NCBI GenBank assembly: GCA_902553005.1
Contig: CACDIK010000002.1
Span: 26,192 to 90,191, forward strand
Length of the DNA: 64,000 nt
Direction: 5' to 3'
Origin: an uncultured Alphaproteobacteria bacterium
GTDB lineage: Bacteria > Pseudomonadota > Alphaproteobacteria > HIMB59 > GCA-002718135
Shown here piece by piece: positions 1-6,816 of the stretch. The notes below the pieces were generated by a model. That model saw only the letters and a list, made by a program, of their open reading frames with translations. It was not told where the DNA came from and made no database searches. Each line of letters begins with the position of its first letter. The first letter of the stretch is position 1. The position numbers and the translations under genes were made by a program.

Positions 1-822
1 ATGTCTGATTATGAAAAAAAACAATTTTTACAAAATTTTCACAAGGAACCAAATATTCATATTGTTTTTAAAGATGAAGAAAAGTTAAAAAAATTTGATG
101 ATAAATTATTTAAAACATCAACTATATCTGGTTTTTTATTAGATGAAAAAAATTTTCAGGAAAAAATTTCTTTTATTAATGGTGATTGGTGGGTGCAAGA
201 TTTTAGCTCTTTTCTTCCATTATACAATTTTAAAGAAATAAATAAAAATAAGCTACTTCTTGATGCCTGTGCTGCACCAGGTGGAAAATCTTTTCAAATT
301 TTATCTAAGAAATTAAATGTTATCTTAAATGATAAAAGCAAAAATAGAATTCAAACTCTTAAATCTAATTTAAAGCGACTCAAATTAAGTGCTAAAATTT
401 TGAATGAAGATTTTATTCGATTTGATAATAAAGGAAAGTATGACGTAATTATAATTGATGCTCCTTGTTCGGCTGTTGGAACAATAAGAAGGAATCCTGA
501 AATTTTTTTTAAAAATAAAGGCCCAAATTTTGACAAGCTGCTTTCTTTACAAGAAAATATGTTAGAAAAAGCATCATTTTTATTAAATACAAACGGATTT
601 ATAATTTATATGACTTGTTCTTTTTTAAAAATTGAAACCATAGATCAAATTAAAAAGTTCCTTAAATTAAACAATAATTTTGTGCTTTCAAATTTTAAAT
701 TAATAGAAAATCAGAAAAATTACTCAAAATTTATTAAAAATAATTTTATGATAACTATTCCTAATGTGATTTTTGACTATAATATTGATGGATACTTTGC
801 AGCTTTTTTAAAGAAAATATAA
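1..822 (+). CDS. rsmB: 16S rRNA m5C methyltransferase RsmB (5'-truncated)
   Basis: RsmB/NSUN-type SAM-dependent methyltransferase that makes 5-methylcytosine in 16S rRNA. The SAM-binding motif DACAAPGGKS is near residues 88-97. Both family cysteines are present: DAPCS (Cys156) and MTCS (Cys206). The visible 273 residues cover only the catalytic domain; RsmB is usually about 430 aa with an N-terminal NusB-like RNA-binding domain. The ATG at base 1 coincides with the window edge, so the gene probably starts upstream and is cut by the window rather than truncated in the genome. Its stop overlaps the next ATG by one base (TAATG), suggesting coupling to the heparinase-like gene. Confidence 0.85.
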   Translation: MSDYEKKQFLQNFHKEPNIHIVFKDEEKLKKFDDKLFKTSTISGFLLDEKNFQEKISFINGDWWVQDFSSFLPLYNFKEINKNKLLLDACAAPGGKSFQILSKKLNVILNDKSKNRIQTLKSNLKRLKLSAKILNEDFIRFDNKGKYDVIIIDAPCSAVGTIRRNPEIFFKNKGPNFDKLLSLQENMLEKASFLLNTNGFIIYMTCSFLKIETIDQIKKFLKLNNNFVLSNFKLIENQKNYSKFIKNNFMITIPNVIFDYNIDGYFAAFLKKI

Positions 823-2354
823 TGATTTTAATAATAAAGAAAATATTATTTATATTTATAACCTCTAAGTTCAATGCAAAAAAAAATTTATCTTTTTTAG
901 ATTTAAACTTTAAAAAAATAGATTTTACAAATCACGATAAAATAAAATCATTTATTTTTAAAGAAAATTTTTATACTTACAAAAATAAAAATATTCATAG
1001 TTTTGATTTTTTAAATTTCTCAAATAAACTTGGTGGTAAAATAGGTATAAATTTGTCTAAAAAAGCAATCTTTGGGTGGCATAAACTAAACAAAAATAAG
1101 TTAGGCTTTCCTTGGATAGAAGATCTATCATCTAAAAGACTAATAAATCTTTTGTATAACTATGAATATATAAATTCTGCTTCAAAAGAAGGTGACAAGA
1201 AAAAGTTAGATTTTATAATCTATTTTCATATTCAAAGAATTTTATTTGATTTCAACTCAAAAAAAATATCTGAATTTACTTCGTATGATTTAAAAGCATA
1301 TTTGTTATCTTGCTCACTCCTAAAAAAAATTAATGAAACAGATATTGATTATATAAAATATATTGTTGATAACCAAATTGATAAAATTGGTATGCATAAA
1401 AGTTATAATCTCTTGGAGCATTCTAAGTTTATAAATAATCTTAGTGAAATAAAAAATATTTTACTTTTTTCTAAATCAAATAAATCAAATGTTTTTGATG
1501 AAGTAATTCTTAAAATGACATCAATATTGAATGAATATTTTCATTTAGATGGCTCACTAGCTCTATTTAATGGTACTAATAATGTTTATACAATCAATAT
1601 CTACAAATCTTTAAACAAAGAGAGTTATTTAAAAAAAAGAGAGTTTTCAAATATTAATAATGGAATTGCATTTTACTCAGATAAAAATAAAAAAATATTT
1701 TTTGATGTAGTGCAACCTAATTCAGATATGATAAGTTCTAACTTAAGTGCGGGAACTTTATCACTTGAATTGAGTGGTTTTGGAGAGAAAATAGTTACAA
1801 ATTGTGGTGCCTCAGAAAGTTATGGTAAAAATCCAGAATATTTAAGATACAGTGCAGCTCATTCTACTATTATTCTACAAAACACTAATATTAGTGAAAT
1901 AAAGGAAGACAACCCACATATTAAATTTCCCCAATCAGTAGTCTTTAGAAAGGAGACTAACGGTCAAGAAGAAATATTTGAGGGGTCACATAATGGATAT
2001 TTAAAAAAATTTAATAAAATATTAAAAAGAAAATTAATTATTTATAAAAATAAAAATAAATTAAAGGGAGAAGATAGCTTTATTTCTTATAAAAATCTCC
2101 GTAATAGATTGATTTACCATATAAGATTTCACCTAGCCAATGAAATGATTTTAAATTTTACAAATAATAAAAAAAATATAATTTTAAAAACAAAAATGAA
2201 CAATATATGGCTGTTTAAAAGTAATACTGAACTTATAATAGAAGATAGTATATCGGTTGATAATAATATTACTAAACCTACTAAACAAATTGTAATTAAG
2301 GGTGTATTGTCAGATAAAAAGATTATAGAAAAATGGTCGTTAGAAAAAATCTAA
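822..2354 (+). CDS. Heparinase II/III family protein
   Basis: A 510-aa protein whose C-terminal third (about residues 290-480) resembles the heparinase II/III beta-sandwich domain, including a glycine-rich SGFGEK stretch and the AHSTIILQ segment that corresponds to the family's AH-(N/S)-T region. No clear signal peptide is visible; the N-terminus is hydrophobic for only about 12 residues. Family members are polysaccharide lyases or relatives of unknown substrate. As I recall, many alphaproteobacteria carry this uncharacterised member between rsmB and purH, so it is probably a conserved housekeeping-type envelope enzyme and not a recent acquisition. It overlaps rsmB by 1 bp and the purH N-half by 22 bp. 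Substrate unknown. Confidence 0.72.
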   Translation: MILIIKKILFIFITSKFNAKKNLSFLDLNFKKIDFTNHDKIKSFIFKENFYTYKNKNIHSFDFLNFSNKLGGKIGINLSKKAIFGWHKLNKNKLGFPWIEDLSSKRLINLLYNYEYINSASKEGDKKKLDFIIYFHIQRILFDFNSKKISEFTSYDLKAYLLSCSLLKKINETDIDYIKYIVDNQIDKIGMHKSYNLLEHSKFINNLSEIKNILLFSKSNKSNVFDEVILKMTSILNEYFHLDGSLALFNGTNNVYTINIYKSLNKESYLKKREFSNINNGIAFYSDKNKKIFFDVVQPNSDMISSNLSAGTLSLELSGFGEKIVTNCGASESYGKNPEYLRYSAAHSTIILQNTNISEIKEDNPHIKFPQSVVFRKETNGQEEIFEGSHNGYLKKFNKILKRKLIIYKNKNKLKGEDSFISYKNLRNRLIYHIRFHLANEMILNFTNNKKNIILKTKMNNIWLFKSNTELIIEDSISVDNNITKPTKQIVIKGVLSDKKIIEKWSLEKI

Positions 2355-2932
2355 AAAAAAAATTTGCTTTAATATCTGTATTTGATAAAAAAAATTTAAA
2401 GTATCTCTGCTCAAACTTGAGTAAATTTAATTACAATTTTATGTCCAGTGGTTCTACGGGAAATAAAATTCGTGAATTAGGATTTAAATGTAAAGATATT
2501 TCAAAAATGACAAATTCTAAAGAAATGTTTGGAGGTAGGGTTAAAACATTAAATCCATTAATATATAGCTCACTACTTTACATTAGAGATGATAAAATTC
2601 ATAAAAAACAGTTTCAATTATTAAACATACCTGAAATAGATATTGTTGTAGTTAACTTATATCCTTTTAAAAAATATTTAAAAAAAAATAATTATGATCA
2701 AATTATTGAAATGATTGATATTGGTGGGCCAGGTTTATTACGAGCTGCCGGAAAAAACTTCAAATACATAACTCCAGTAGCTGATATTAAGGATTATAAA
2801 AAATTAGTAACAAATTTAACTAAGAATAATGGGGAAACAGACATTATTTTTAGAAAAAAAATGGCTCTTAAGGTTTTTAAACAATCAGCACAATATGACA
2901 AAATTATTTATAATTGGCTAAATGAAAATTAA
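2333..2932 (+). CDS. purH: PurH N-terminal half: IMP cyclohydrolase (MGS-like) domain
   Basis: 199 aa corresponding to the IMP cyclohydrolase half of bifunctional PurH, which closes the ring to form IMP in the last step of purine synthesis. Family motifs include SSGSTGNK, GRVKTLNP, NLYPF and the DIGGPGLLRAAGKN loop. It ends at the interdomain linker, and the transformylase half starts in another frame with an 11-bp overlap. The usual PurH is one chain of about 510-530 aa; the two pieces total 504. Deviations: the canonical LHP-x-x-HGG segment reads LNP-x-x-YSS here. The Lys/Thr of GRVKT, the Asp of DIGG and the Lys of the AAxKN motif are kept, so activity is plausible but not certain. Confidence 0.82.
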   Translation: MVVRKNLKKKFALISVFDKKNLKYLCSNLSKFNYNFMSSGSTGNKIRELGFKCKDISKMTNSKEMFGGRVKTLNPLIYSSLLYIRDDKIHKKQFQLLNIPEIDIVVVNLYPFKKYLKKNNYDQIIEMIDIGGPGLLRAAGKNFKYITPVADIKDYKKLVTNLTKNNGETDIIFRKKMALKVFKQSAQYDKIIYNWLNEN

Positions 2933-3839
2933 AAATAGTAAAATCAAATTAAGATATGGAGAAAATCCAAATCAAATAGGCTACTTAATTAGTAATAAAA
3001 GAAATTCAATTTTTAGCTATCAAATTAGTGGGAAACAAATAAGTTATAATAATTTAATTGATATTGATAGTGGATTAAAATGTTTAAAAGAATTTCTTGA
3101 GCCTACTTCCATAATTCTGAAACATACTAATCCTTGTGGTATAGCGTCAGCAAAAAACATAGAGGCCGCTTTTAATAGATCTTATGAAAGTGATCCTAAA
3201 AGTGCTTTTGGAGGAATAGTTTTGCTAAATAGAAAAGTAACTTCTAAACTTGCTATGAAAATATACAAAAATTTTTACGAAATGATAGTTGCTTTAGATT
3301 TCAATCAAGATGCACTAAAAATTTTAAAAAAAAAGAAAAATTTAATTTTATTAAAAATACCCAATATAAAAAAAACGACCCTCGAATATAGATCAACTTT
3401 ATTTGGTGATCTTTATCAAACAACAGATTTAAACCCAATTAATAGAAAGTTTTTAACCTTAGTTTCAAGAAAGAAAGGGTCAACAAAAACAATTAATGAT
3501 TTAATTTTTTCACTTAAAGTTGCAAAACACTTAAAATCAAACGCTATTGTTTTATCCAGAAACAAACAAACTCTAGGTTTGGGTCATGGTCATACAAACA
3601 GAGTAGATGCATTATATTATGCTATTAAAAATATGAATAAATATTTTAAAAAAGGTAATTTCGTTTGTGCTTCAGACGGTTTTTTTCCTTTTGTAGACAG
3701 TATAAATTTACTAAATAGGAATGGATGCAATGCTGTAGCTCAGCCAGAAGGCTCGATAAATGATAAGGTAATAATTTCTTTTTCAATAAAAAATAAATTA
3801 TCATTATATTTCATAAAAAATAGACTCTTTAAACATTGA
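2922..3839 (+). CDS. purH: PurH C-terminal half: AICAR formyltransferase domain
   Basis: 305 aa matching the AICAR transformylase half of PurH, which formylates AICAR using 10-formyl-tetrahydrofolate. It starts just before the conserved RYGENPNQ motif that opens this domain. It keeps the KHTNPCG active-site motif and SAFGGIV. The usual GxGAGQMSR segment reads GLGHGHTNR and the usual QPGGS reads QPEGS, so the protein is divergent. The ATG lies inside the last codons of the N-half (11-bp overlap, different frame), which would allow translational coupling. Either a genuine gene fission at the domain linker or a single indel could give this layout. Confidence 0.82.
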   Translation: MKIKNSKIKLRYGENPNQIGYLISNKRNSIFSYQISGKQISYNNLIDIDSGLKCLKEFLEPTSIILKHTNPCGIASAKNIEAAFNRSYESDPKSAFGGIVLLNRKVTSKLAMKIYKNFYEMIVALDFNQDALKILKKKKNLILLKIPNIKKTTLEYRSTLFGDLYQTTDLNPINRKFLTLVSRKKGSTKTINDLIFSLKVAKHLKSNAIVLSRNKQTLGLGHGHTNRVDALYYAIKNMNKYFKKGNFVCASDGFFPFVDSINLLNRNGCNAVAQPEGSINDKVIISFSIKNKLSLYFIKNRLFKH

Positions 3840-3988
3840 ATAAAAAAAATAAAATTTCAAAATATTTAAAAATTTTAATTAAAGATCATCCTAAAATTAC
3901 ATCAGGTAGGAAAAATTTTGATCAACATAATTATAGAATTATAAAAACAATAGAAATAATTAAGAAATATTTTAAATTTAAAGAATAG
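3836..3988 (+). CDS. Possible small protein after purH
   Basis: A 50-residue frame opening with TTG that overlaps the purH stop (TTGA) and ending in TAG. The product would be lysine-rich and basic, with no recognisable motif. The overlap with purH is the only positive sign. In such A+T-rich DNA a frame of this length can occur by chance. Confidence 0.2.
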   Translation: MNKKNKISKYLKILIKDHPKITSGRKNFDQHNYRIIKTIEIIKKYFKFKE

Positions 3989-3995
3989 ATCAGAA

Positions 3996-4760
3996 TTAAA
4001 AAGAGGTATTATTTAAAATATTTTCCCAAGCTTCTCCAGTTTCTATCTCTTTGAGAGTCCACTGACCATATGCCAAATTATTAAAAATTTTATAATCTAT
4101 AATGGGATTTTCTATGTTCTGTATTTTACCTATGTAACTTAAGGTTTTGTCAGTAAAGTATGATGGAACTCCGTTATACATTGCCATAAAACCTGCTGTA
4201 GATTGTAAACTAACAAATGCCCACGCATCTTTTAATAATAAATTCAATGGTTTTTTTGATAATTTATTATGTACTATAATTCTTCTATCGGAATATTTTT
4301 TAACTAATTGTGTTGTCTCTTCAGTCCAATTTGGTACGTTGTACATTTTTTTCATAGTTTCAGATGGTTCAGAAAGGATAATATAGCTACCTGTTTTTTT
4401 TTGATCAAGTATCTTTAAGTTTAGCTTACTTAGTCTATCACTTGGAAAATTGCCCTTACCATTATGTATAAAATTGTTATAGACAATTCTAAAATAACCA
4501 TCCATATTTTTAACTTTAGTTAATTTATTTTCAAATACTCTTTGTGACTGATTAAAATAACCATGATCCATATAGTAAAAATTCTTAACTTTATTAATTA
4601 CGTCAAGAGTTCCTCTAAGTACTCCATAAGTCGCAATAGTTTTATCAAATTCTTTAAAATTATTTACATGACATAAAACAGAATTAGAACCTTTAGCAAA
4701 ATTATAACATAAAGTTCTATTCATTATATGATCTGTGTAAATAACTATAGGTTTTTCCAT
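3996..4760 (-). CDS. Putative capsule-polysaccharide/Kdo-type glycosyltransferase-like protein
   Basis: 254 aa with no signal peptide or membrane segment. The C-terminal part has the pattern of capsule polysaccharide synthesis (KpsC/KpsS-like) and related GT-B proteins: an RRIIVHNKLS strand, then KDAWAFVSLQSTAGFMAMYNG, resembling the 'ST-x-x-x-EA-x-x-x-G-x-P' signature that binds the nucleotide sugar. The family assignment is inference from this pattern only. It is the first gene of the accessory region between purH and tRNA-Gly and points leftward toward purH. It could act in surface glycan assembly with the sugar-transferase-like gene at 5211. It could also be an orphan remnant, being short for the family. 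Confidence 0.45.
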   Translation of the reverse strand: MEKPIVIYTDHIMNRTLCYNFAKGSNSVLCHVNNFKEFDKTIATYGVLRGTLDVINKVKNFYYMDHGYFNQSQRVFENKLTKVKNMDGYFRIVYNNFIHNGKGNFPSDRLSKLNLKILDQKKTGSYIILSEPSETMKKMYNVPNWTEETTQLVKKYSDRRIIVHNKLSKKPLNLLLKDAWAFVSLQSTAGFMAMYNGVPSYFTDKTLSYIGKIQNIENPIIDYKIFNNLAYGQWTLKEIETGEAWENILNNTSF

Positions 4761-5210
4761 TATATTTATATTATAAATTAATAAATTTTTTTATAAATTT
4801 TAAAATATGGTCTAATAATTTAAAATTAGTATTAATATTTAAATTCTTTAATTACCTTATGTAAGATAGGTTTTTTCCCTAAATAAAGTGCATAAAAGTT
4901 TAAACCTATCTATTAATTATACATCTTGATTTTAAGACATAAATAAACATAGATTATCGAATTTAATAAAAAATAGATTTATTTAAGTTATTTGAATTAA
5001 TATACTTATTAACAAAAAATTATGATTAACAATTTTAATTCTGCATAATATTCCAAATTTGCTATAAATTTATGTGATAAAAAAATATTTTAATATGAAA
5101 TATTTACTATTTGCATTTAATATTGGAGGAAAAATTTTTTTGACTTTTTATCAATTTAGTAGATTAAAAACTACTTGGATTAATTTACAATTAATGCTGC
5201 GATAATTGCC
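4761..5210. other. 450-bp A+T-rich gene-free stretch
   Basis: Long for this compact sequence. It lies between the divergent genes at 3996-4760 (minus) and 5211-5927 (plus) and so must hold their promoters. It contains the inverted repeat listed separately and a GGAGG-like purine run near 5123-5127. A 36-codon frame at 5095-5205 shows no recognisable motif and is in a different frame from the downstream gene. I see no tRNA or recognisable ncRNA. Confidence 0.5.
4864..4911. repeat. 10-bp inverted repeat with 28-nt loop
   Basis: AGATAGGTTT (4864-4873) is perfectly complementary to AAACCTATCT (4902-4911). It lies in the divergent spacer and contains most of the G/C there. It could be an operator pair, a structured leader or part of a small RNA. 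There is no T-run directly after either arm, so it is not a classic terminator. Confidence 0.45.
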
Positions 5211-5927
5211 TTGATCAATTTTATTTTTTTTTATGTGGATACTAAAAAGGGCTACTTGTCTGAAAGACACAGAGGTATTGAGCGCGAAAACATTGATCTG
5301 TTTATTAAATCTATAAGAAAATATCATATTGAATCAACAATTATTCACTGTACTGATAAATTTACAAAAACTTTTAAAGATGTTGATATAGTTCATAGAG
5401 AGAAATTTGATTTAAACCACATAATGTTTGGTAGAGTAAAATGTTTTTCAAGTTTTCCTATTAATAAATCATCAATTTATTTAGACCCTGATATGCTTGT
5501 AATGAAAACAATACCTGTAAAATTATTTGAAGAAAAGGCTGATGTTTTCTTATTAAAGAGAAGTTTTGATTTAACAGATATAATGCCAACTACATTTAGA
5601 AAACTAGAATTTCCAAATCACAAAAATAAAAATTTGGAAAATATCTATCCTTTTATTGGTTGTTTTGTTATCCTTAAGAAACAAAATTTCTGGTTAGAGT
5701 GTCTAAACTATTATGAAAATCTTAGTGAAAATTATAAAAATTGGTTTGGTGACCAAGAAATATTTAAAAGGTTAGTAGAGGAAAATAATTATAAATTTGC
5801 TTTTTTAGAAGAAAAAAATTTTGCATGCCCTCCACAGCATCTGAGTGGAAAAGATAGGCCATTTATAGTTCATTTTAAAGGTAAATATAATAAGGAATTA
5901 ATAAAAAAATATTTTGAATTTGTTTAA
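5211..5927 (+). CDS. Putative GT-A fold glycosyltransferase (GT8-like)
   Basis: 238 aa, TTG start; no in-frame ATG lies nearby and an in-frame GTG eight codons later is the alternative. The IYLDPDMLVMK segment near residues 86-96 is a DxD motif in a hydrophobic strand, as in GT8 and related nucleotide-sugar transferases. It is followed by a GCFVILKK strand and a late GDQEIF motif, typical of the acceptor side of these enzymes. The C-terminal HFKGK resembles the H-x-x-G-x-x-K that binds the diphosphate. Donor and acceptor are unknown. It is soluble, with no membrane segment. Its context of sulfotransferases and a capsule-like protein suggests surface glycan work (inference). Confidence 0.6.
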   Translation: MINFIFFYVDTKKGYLSERHRGIERENIDLFIKSIRKYHIESTIIHCTDKFTKTFKDVDIVHREKFDLNHIMFGRVKCFSSFPINKSSIYLDPDMLVMKTIPVKLFEEKADVFLLKRSFDLTDIMPTTFRKLEFPNHKNKNLENIYPFIGCFVILKKQNFWLECLNYYENLSENYKNWFGDQEIFKRLVEENNYKFAFLEEKNFACPPQHLSGKDRPFIVHFKGKYNKELIKKYFEFV

Positions 5928-5966
5928 AAAATTAAATTAAATAATTAGGTACAAATTACAATTTAG

Positions 5967-6131
5967 TTAAAGAAAATATAATATAGATTTATTAAATTCA
6001 TTTTGTAAAACGTATATATTTGCAAGGTTTATATATGCTTTATTATTTTTACTATTTAACTCAATTGCATTTAAAAAAAGTGATTTTGCTTCATCAAAAT
6101 TACCTACTTCTTGGTTTTTTAACCCTATCAT
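5967..6131 (-). pseudogene. TPR-protein fragment (remnant)
   Basis: On the minus strand a 54-codon frame reads GNFDEAKSLFLNAIEL followed by AYINLANIYVLQNEF, a bona fide TPR helix pair. It is clearly similar to the first TPRs of the neighbouring TPR-sulfotransferase (GKLIEAENNFKKAIEK, then SYINLANVYIMQ). It has no partner domain and no flanking coding sequence, so it looks like a decayed remnant of a paralogous TPR-sulfotransferase in the opposite orientation. A free-standing micro-TPR protein is less likely. Confidence 0.6.
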
Positions 6132-6219
6132 TAATTAATACTTTATAGTTATTTTTATTTTTTAACATTTTCTATTTACTAAAAAAATTTAAGATATATT
6201 TTCGTATGATAAATAAATC

Positions 6220-6816
6220 ATGTCTAATCCTAATCTTTTCTTCTCTACACCTGTTTGGGTTTCTACAATAAATAATTATAAAGAAACTAATGAAAAAATA
6301 TATCATTACATTAAGAATTTACAAAATGAGGATAACAAAGGAATAATTCGCAGTAATGTTAAAGGGTGGCACTCCAACAATTTTAATTTAGAAGATGAAA
6401 ATGTAATTGAATTTATTAATTTGATTTCTCCAAATATTAACAACGTTTTAAATGATATGAATTGGGATATATCTAAACAAAGAGCAAAGATATCAGCTAT
6501 GTGGGCAATAATTAATATAGGAGGAGCTTCCAATTCTAGACATCATCATGGAAATAGTGACATAAGTGCTGCATATTATGTAAGAGCACCTAAAAATTGT
6601 GGTGAGATTGTTTTTTATGATCCAAGACCCGCCCCAGTATACTTTCATCCATTATCAACAAAACCAAACAGTTTAAATGCTATGCAGAATGCCGTAAATC
6701 CAGTAGAAGGTGGTTTAGTACTCTTTCCTAGTTATTTAGATCATTCAGTAAATCCAAATCTCAGTAATGAAGAAAGAATTGTGATAAGTTTTAATCTAAA
6801 TTTAGTTAGGAAATAA
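6220..6816 (+). CDS. TIGR02466-type putative 2OG-Fe(II) oxygenase
   Basis: 198 aa. A cupin-like iron-binding arrangement is visible: RHHHGNSD (HxD-type ligands near residues 108-114), then GLVLFPSYLDHSV (distal His) and a late RIVISFNL strand whose Arg would bind 2-oxoglutarate. This matches the TIGR02466 family of putative oxygenases, often met in marine bacteria and T4-like cyanophages. The substrate is unknown for the family. It is monocistronic in an accessory region, followed by a weak A+T-rich hairpin (AAGAT/ATCTT then T-run near 6824-6842). Phage-related transfer is possible but not shown. Confidence 0.72.
   Translation: MSNPNLFFSTPVWVSTINNYKETNEKIYHYIKNLQNEDNKGIIRSNVKGWHSNNFNLEDENVIEFINLISPNINNVLNDMNWDISKQRAKISAMWAIINIGGASNSRHHHGNSDISAAYYVRAPKNCGEIVFYDPRPAPVYFHPLSTKPNSLNAMQNAVNPVEGGLVLFPSYLDHSVNPNLSNEERIVISFNLNLVRK

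Follow-up and report, generated by a model that had tools for sequence, protein, structure and literature searches.

PurH, in which an IMP cyclohydrolase (IMPCH, PurH2) and an AICAR formyltransferase (AICARFT, PurH1) form one chain, is bifunctional almost uniformly outside the archaea, where unfused PurH2 or PurH1 occur (PMC6797443, PMC3261824). The naturally unfused PurH2 of Archaeoglobus fulgidus, AF1811, is active and complements E. coli (PMC6797443), and according to work cited in PMC3261824 the two halves of the chicken (avian) enzyme each work separately. As PurH is fused in nearly all bacteria, the reason why the fusion persists becomes the question. The literature searched, which omits most subscription journals, contained no fixed fission of a bacterial purH, and purH is not mentioned in the searched papers that name both HIMB59 and AEGEAN-169.

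We analysed a stretch of 64,000 nucleotides (the window) from contig CACDIK010000002.1 of an uncultured alphaproteobacterium (GCA_902553005.1; source genome 1.03 Mb, 57 % complete), in which purH is divided between two overlapping ORFs on the same strand, purH-C lying in the +1 frame relative to purH-N (Table 1). The initial annotation had described a gene split into two frames with an 11-nt overlap just before RYGENPNQ, the break falling at the natural linker, and both observations were borne out. RYGENPNQ lies 10 codons downstream of the purH-C start, and the two products cover the 510 positions of the NCBIfam PurH profile NF002049 with only the linker missing. Pfam places MGS and the start of PF01808 in purH-N and the remainder of PF01808 in purH-C, while in alignments with solved PurH chains purH-N ends at their residue ~191-214 and purH-C begins at ~174-231 (bacterial chains). 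The split point is the domain border. Neither half attains the whole-enzyme NF002049 cut-off of 402 bits, scoring 207.9 (purH-N) and 313.6 (purH-C). A TAA directly before the purH-C ATG makes a start of this ORF further upstream impossible. The rsmB-type gene, which opens the conserved run, probably starts upstream of the window.

Table 1 Features of the split purH locus (positions within the window)
Feature	Position	Strand	Evidence
RsmB-type 16S rRNA methyltransferase, C-terminal part	1..822	+	PF01189, E 2.4e-37
Heparinase II/III-like protein (hep)	822..2354	+	PF07940, E 2.1e-35
purH-N, predicted stand-alone IMPCH (PurH2) half, 199 aa, ATG start	2333..2932	+	NF002049, E 2.8e-61, profile 4-195
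TAA in the purH-C frame, abutting its ATG on the 5′ side	2919..2921	+	sequence
11-nt overlap ATGAAAATTAA: purH-C start ATG 2922-2924, purH-N stop TAA 2930-2932	2922..2932	+	
purH-C, predicted stand-alone AICARFT (PurH1) half, 305 aa, ATG start	2922..3839	+	NF002049, E 2.5e-93, profile 211-510; PF01808, E 3.7e-76
RYGENPNQ motif, start of the AICARFT domain	2952..2975	+	translation
50-aa ORF, TTG start, SGRKNF motif, 4-nt overlap (TTGA) with the end of purH-C	3836..3988	+	conservation after purH

The streamlined marine HIMB59 group has been described previously (PMC10734472, PMC10308909), and AG-891-K05 (relative L091), from genomospecies GCA002718135-1, is named as a reference genome for the marine HIMB59 clade (PMC10734472). 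Our sample of the genus comprised 101 genomes of these HIMB59/AEGEAN-169 marine alphaproteobacteria, mostly incomplete single-cell assemblies, 79 of which had a purH match. The junction was readable in 77 of the 79, with counts over relatives representing phylogenetically non-independent events: 50 genomes (source genome included) carry two ORFs in different frames in place of one bifunctional chain of ~510 aa, and 27 carry a fused purH with 500-523 codons between stops. Contig ends cut purH in the remaining two, one of which (G014) retains the split-type start. Identities within the split clade were 62-92 %, and every readable member of it is split. The initial annotation had held that an uninterrupted frame of about 510 codons in close relatives would refute a fission; such frames do occur in the 27 fused genomes of the genus, but none of the 27 belongs to the split clade (48-63 % identity), and their fused purH is the ancestral state rather than a refutation.

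Beyond the genus, purH is fused in five genomes from five other genera of the family, a sixth (G107) being cut by a contig end. In one sampling of 299 genomes of Pseudomonadota, 288 of them with purH, none outside the genus had the two halves on one contig among the matches listed, the remainder being judged by the single strong purH match per genome; four weak cases that we inspected resolved into three contig breaks and one whole frame. We set aside four candidates for a further split, G107 from another genus and G247, G210 and G235 from other parts of the phylum, all being cut by contig ends. Searching with PF01808 gave no second purH in the genomes of the split clade.

In a purH tree built without the linker columns the split genomes form one side of a single branch (SH-aLRT 100; the trees of this paragraph were rooted with other genera). 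The same clade was recovered by each half (SH-aLRT 98 for purH-N and 96 for purH-C), by the operon neighbours hep (97) and rsmB (97), and by the unlinked rpoB (bootstrap 99, SH-aLRT 96; 26 genomes). Fused and split relatives share the order rsmB-hep-purH. The recovery of one clade in all these trees, together with fused genes at the same place of the operon, points to a single event within the genus with the fused gene as the older state. The fission is heritable and arose once, in the forebear of a single large clade of the genus. We also considered horizontal replacement by a foreign split purH, and rejected it because the same clade emerges from hep, from rsmB and from unlinked rpoB. Our main reading, to which we assign a probability of about 0.9, is an ancestral single fission of the bifunctional purH in one HIMB59/AEGEAN-169 clade, leaving two stand-alone enzymes of which the second has its own downstream start.

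The markers recA and the adjacent alaS (recA loci L130-L198, alaS loci L226-L252) are near-identical between genomes with only ~70 % purH identity, and in their trees, in contrast to those of rpoB, hep, rsmB and purH, split and fused genomes are intermingled. We rejected recA as a species marker, its discordant tree placing the fused genomes G041 and G071 among split ones, and alaS was discordant too. No rpoB match was found in G041. For G071 rpoB agrees with purH, and we therefore read the recA-alaS discordance as recombination; recombination, or else a genus-wide sweep, at recA-alaS is what the pattern suggests.

The phase and start site of purH-C are common to 49 of the 50 split genomes (47 ATG, 1 GTG, 1 TTG), and in 48 of these 49 the distance from the start to RYGEN is exactly 10 codons. 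The purH-N stop shifts by 3-nt steps, giving overlaps of 11 nt (23 genomes), 17 nt (21), 8 nt (4) and 14 nt (1). The start triplet is made up of the last two bases of one purH-N codon and the first base of the next, and purH-N has N, D, Y, S or L at this place. Ser or Leu is paired with a GTG or TTG start, so that a usable start is kept despite the change in the purH-N protein. Start-like triplets stand at the homologous place in 50/50 split but only 2/31 fused genes, proportions that are not phylogenetically independent. Conservation of the start is far beyond chance, and the aligned junctions indicate that the overlapping start is under visible constraint. In the one exception, L039 (G076), a run of eight A alters the phase, with a TGA stop of purH-N, a TTG start of purH-C and a 4-nt TTGA overlap between them; a homopolymer error and a genuine shift to the efficient -4 spacing would both explain this junction.

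With both frames open through the overlap, programmed ribosomal frameshifting or RNA-polymerase slippage could conceivably produce a full-length PurH, alone or beside a short N product, and there are documented cases of recoding in disrupted genes (PMC5009743, PMC4256274). We regard such recoding as very unlikely, as no slippery or stimulatory motif and no long homopolymer is conserved in the shift window of the 50 split genomes, the longest homopolymer there being ≤ 6 nt in 48 of them, and in 15 genomes, the source genome (ATGAAAATTAA) among them, the shift window spans no more than 11 nt. Moreover, the purH-N stop drifts freely while the start, which a frameshift would not need, is kept.

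In our main reading, a change of reading frame in the short interdomain linker split purH, the upstream gene becoming a stand-alone IMPCH and the downstream gene a stand-alone AICARFT with its own start codon within the last codons of the upstream gene. One message would then most likely give rise to two proteins, purH-C being translated by restart, or by RNA unfolding, behind the ribosome that finishes purH-N. We infer that two separate proteins are made by this route and that both are active. No Shine-Dalgarno-like conservation was found upstream of the purH-C start across the split genomes, and initiation may therefore depend on the completion of purH-N by the ribosome, through reinitiation or unfolding of the RNA. 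Coupled translation is plausible.

Coupling has been reported to be efficient at spacings of -8 to +6, and phase-1 overlaps (-8, -11, -14 and so on) to be unable to shorten to -4 or -1 (PMC10666635); coupling weakens as overlaps lengthen, with none at -25 in one study (PMC12548453). Among the 50 split genomes four have a spacing of -8, one of -4 (in another phase) and 45 of -11, -14 or -17. The observed series of 8, 11, 14 and 17 nt fits the phase-1 class, and the purH overlaps of 11-17 nt exceed the spacing of greatest efficiency (-8 to +6) and are expected to couple less well (PMC10666635, PMC12548453). The split might even be adaptive, with the locked phase-1 start fixing an unequal AICARFT:IMPCH ratio, or with a different hetero-complex, so that these streamlined ocean bacteria could regulate the AICAR step and the IMP step separately; we hold this to be rather unlikely. 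The same operon contains another long-lived phase-1 overlap, that between the hep stop and the purH-N start (2333-2354), which is exactly 22 nt in 50/50 split loci and, where fused loci were counted, in 23 of 26.

Both halves look functional on the grounds of residue conservation, substitution rates and predicted folds. The IMPCH catalytic residues, K66, Y104, D125 and K137 in the human enzyme (PMC3261824), have their equivalents in K71, Y110, D129 and K141 of purH-N, assigned via the motifs GRVKTL, NLYPF, DIGG and AxKN, and these are invariant among 51 homologues. purH-C retains the AICARFT motifs RYG, KH, Asn, SDxFFPF and the C-terminal R/H, with Y12, K67, H68, N207, F254-F257, R301 and H305 invariant and R11 conserved at a level of at least 90 %. 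Residues 220-227 of purH-C read LGHGHTNR, and the split clade has LGHG(Q/H)TNR there, compared with the usual AICARFT sequence IGAGQMSR/IGAGQMNR in many fused relatives. In all but the closest pairs dN/dS (NG86) is ~0.1-0.2 in both halves, like in fused relatives, which indicates that both halves are mostly under purifying selection. AlphaFold2 models each half as a complete PurH domain (purH-N, pLDDT 91.1, TM 0.91 to human ATIC; purH-C, pLDDT 93.9, TM 0.92 to M. tuberculosis PurH). Both PurM and PurL are present. Replacement of IMPCH by the archaeal PurO was also considered and rejected, a search having found PurO to be absent.

Pathway loss is common in streamlined genomes, the source genome is incomplete, and in two very close pairs, which differ by very few changes, dN/dS is raised to 0.4-0.6 in one half or in both, all of which might suit a split purH that is a decaying pseudogene in cells that scavenge purines. 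This is highly improbable given that purifying selection has acted on the two halves throughout a deep divergence, and given the invariant catalytic residues, the frames intact in 50 genomes and the retention of PurM and PurL. That purH is truly one frame, disrupted by a recent frameshift or by an error of sequencing or assembly, as the initial annotation had offered in the alternative, can be practically discounted, since despite the A/T-rich single-cell genome, the change of phase by homopolymer length in L039 and the fused purH within the same genus, the same phase and start recur, at identities as low as 62 %, in 49 of the 50 split genomes, in separate assemblies and within one supported clade. 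The alignment across related genomes that it had proposed thus returned the same split and start in independent assemblies, and the functional fission it thought plausible is supported by 50 separately assembled genomes of one clade, with L039 in another phase.

Directly 3′ of purH we identified an ORF of ~50 aa in 45/50 split and 31/32 fused loci. In most of the 82 loci it stands at this place, with the motif SGRKN(F/I/Y) and usually a TTG start that shares 4 nt (TTGA) with the end of purH, and it is present in other genera of the family too; the copy in the window has no Pfam or NCBIfam match. The region that follows (window 3996-6816) is variable among relatives. The source genome and its nearest relatives have a minus-strand ORF of 254 aa, with no Pfam match, ~1.8 kb after the purH-C start, and most others have, ~1.1 kb after that start, a gene like the 2OG-Fe(II) oxygenase found at 6220-6816 in the window.

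The locus represents a single fission that has been maintained through deep divergence, with the overlapping start visibly constrained. The occurrence of split and fused forms at the same operon place in close relatives constitutes a natural experiment, and a direct comparison of the two could probe the value of the fusion for channelling, for the ratio of the two activities or for AICAR control. Gene callers and completeness checks may flag such split genes as broken.

Compared with the bifunctional PurH/ATIC (NF002049, TIGR00355; 1PKX, human; 3ZZM/4A1O, M. tuberculosis), including the fused orthologue that occupies this operon elsewhere in the genus and family, the locus has the same domains, order, catalytic residues, folds and operon place, but encodes two chains, neither of which reaches the whole-enzyme cut-off. 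ForH (6NKO), a stand-alone protein like PurH-N, is likewise a single IMPCH-type domain of similar length (TM 0.86, 27 % identity to purH-N). It is linked to formycin biosynthesis. ForH is pathway-specific by name, whereas purH-N is a product of the split of the cell's only purH. With termination-reinitiation pairs the purH pair shares a same-strand phase-1 overlap (-8, -11, -14, -17), a class whose persistence has been ascribed to its inability to shorten to -4 or -1 (PMC6728339, PMC10666635); unlike the efficiently coupled pairs, its overlaps are mostly -11 and -17, past the efficient window. The archaeal stand-alone PurH2 (AF1811) and PurH1 (PMC3261824, PMC6797443) likewise encode IMPCH or AICARFT alone, the partner step often being performed by the unrelated PurP or PurO, or PurH1 being fused to PurN, whereas here both halves are present, adjacent, overlapping and bacterial.
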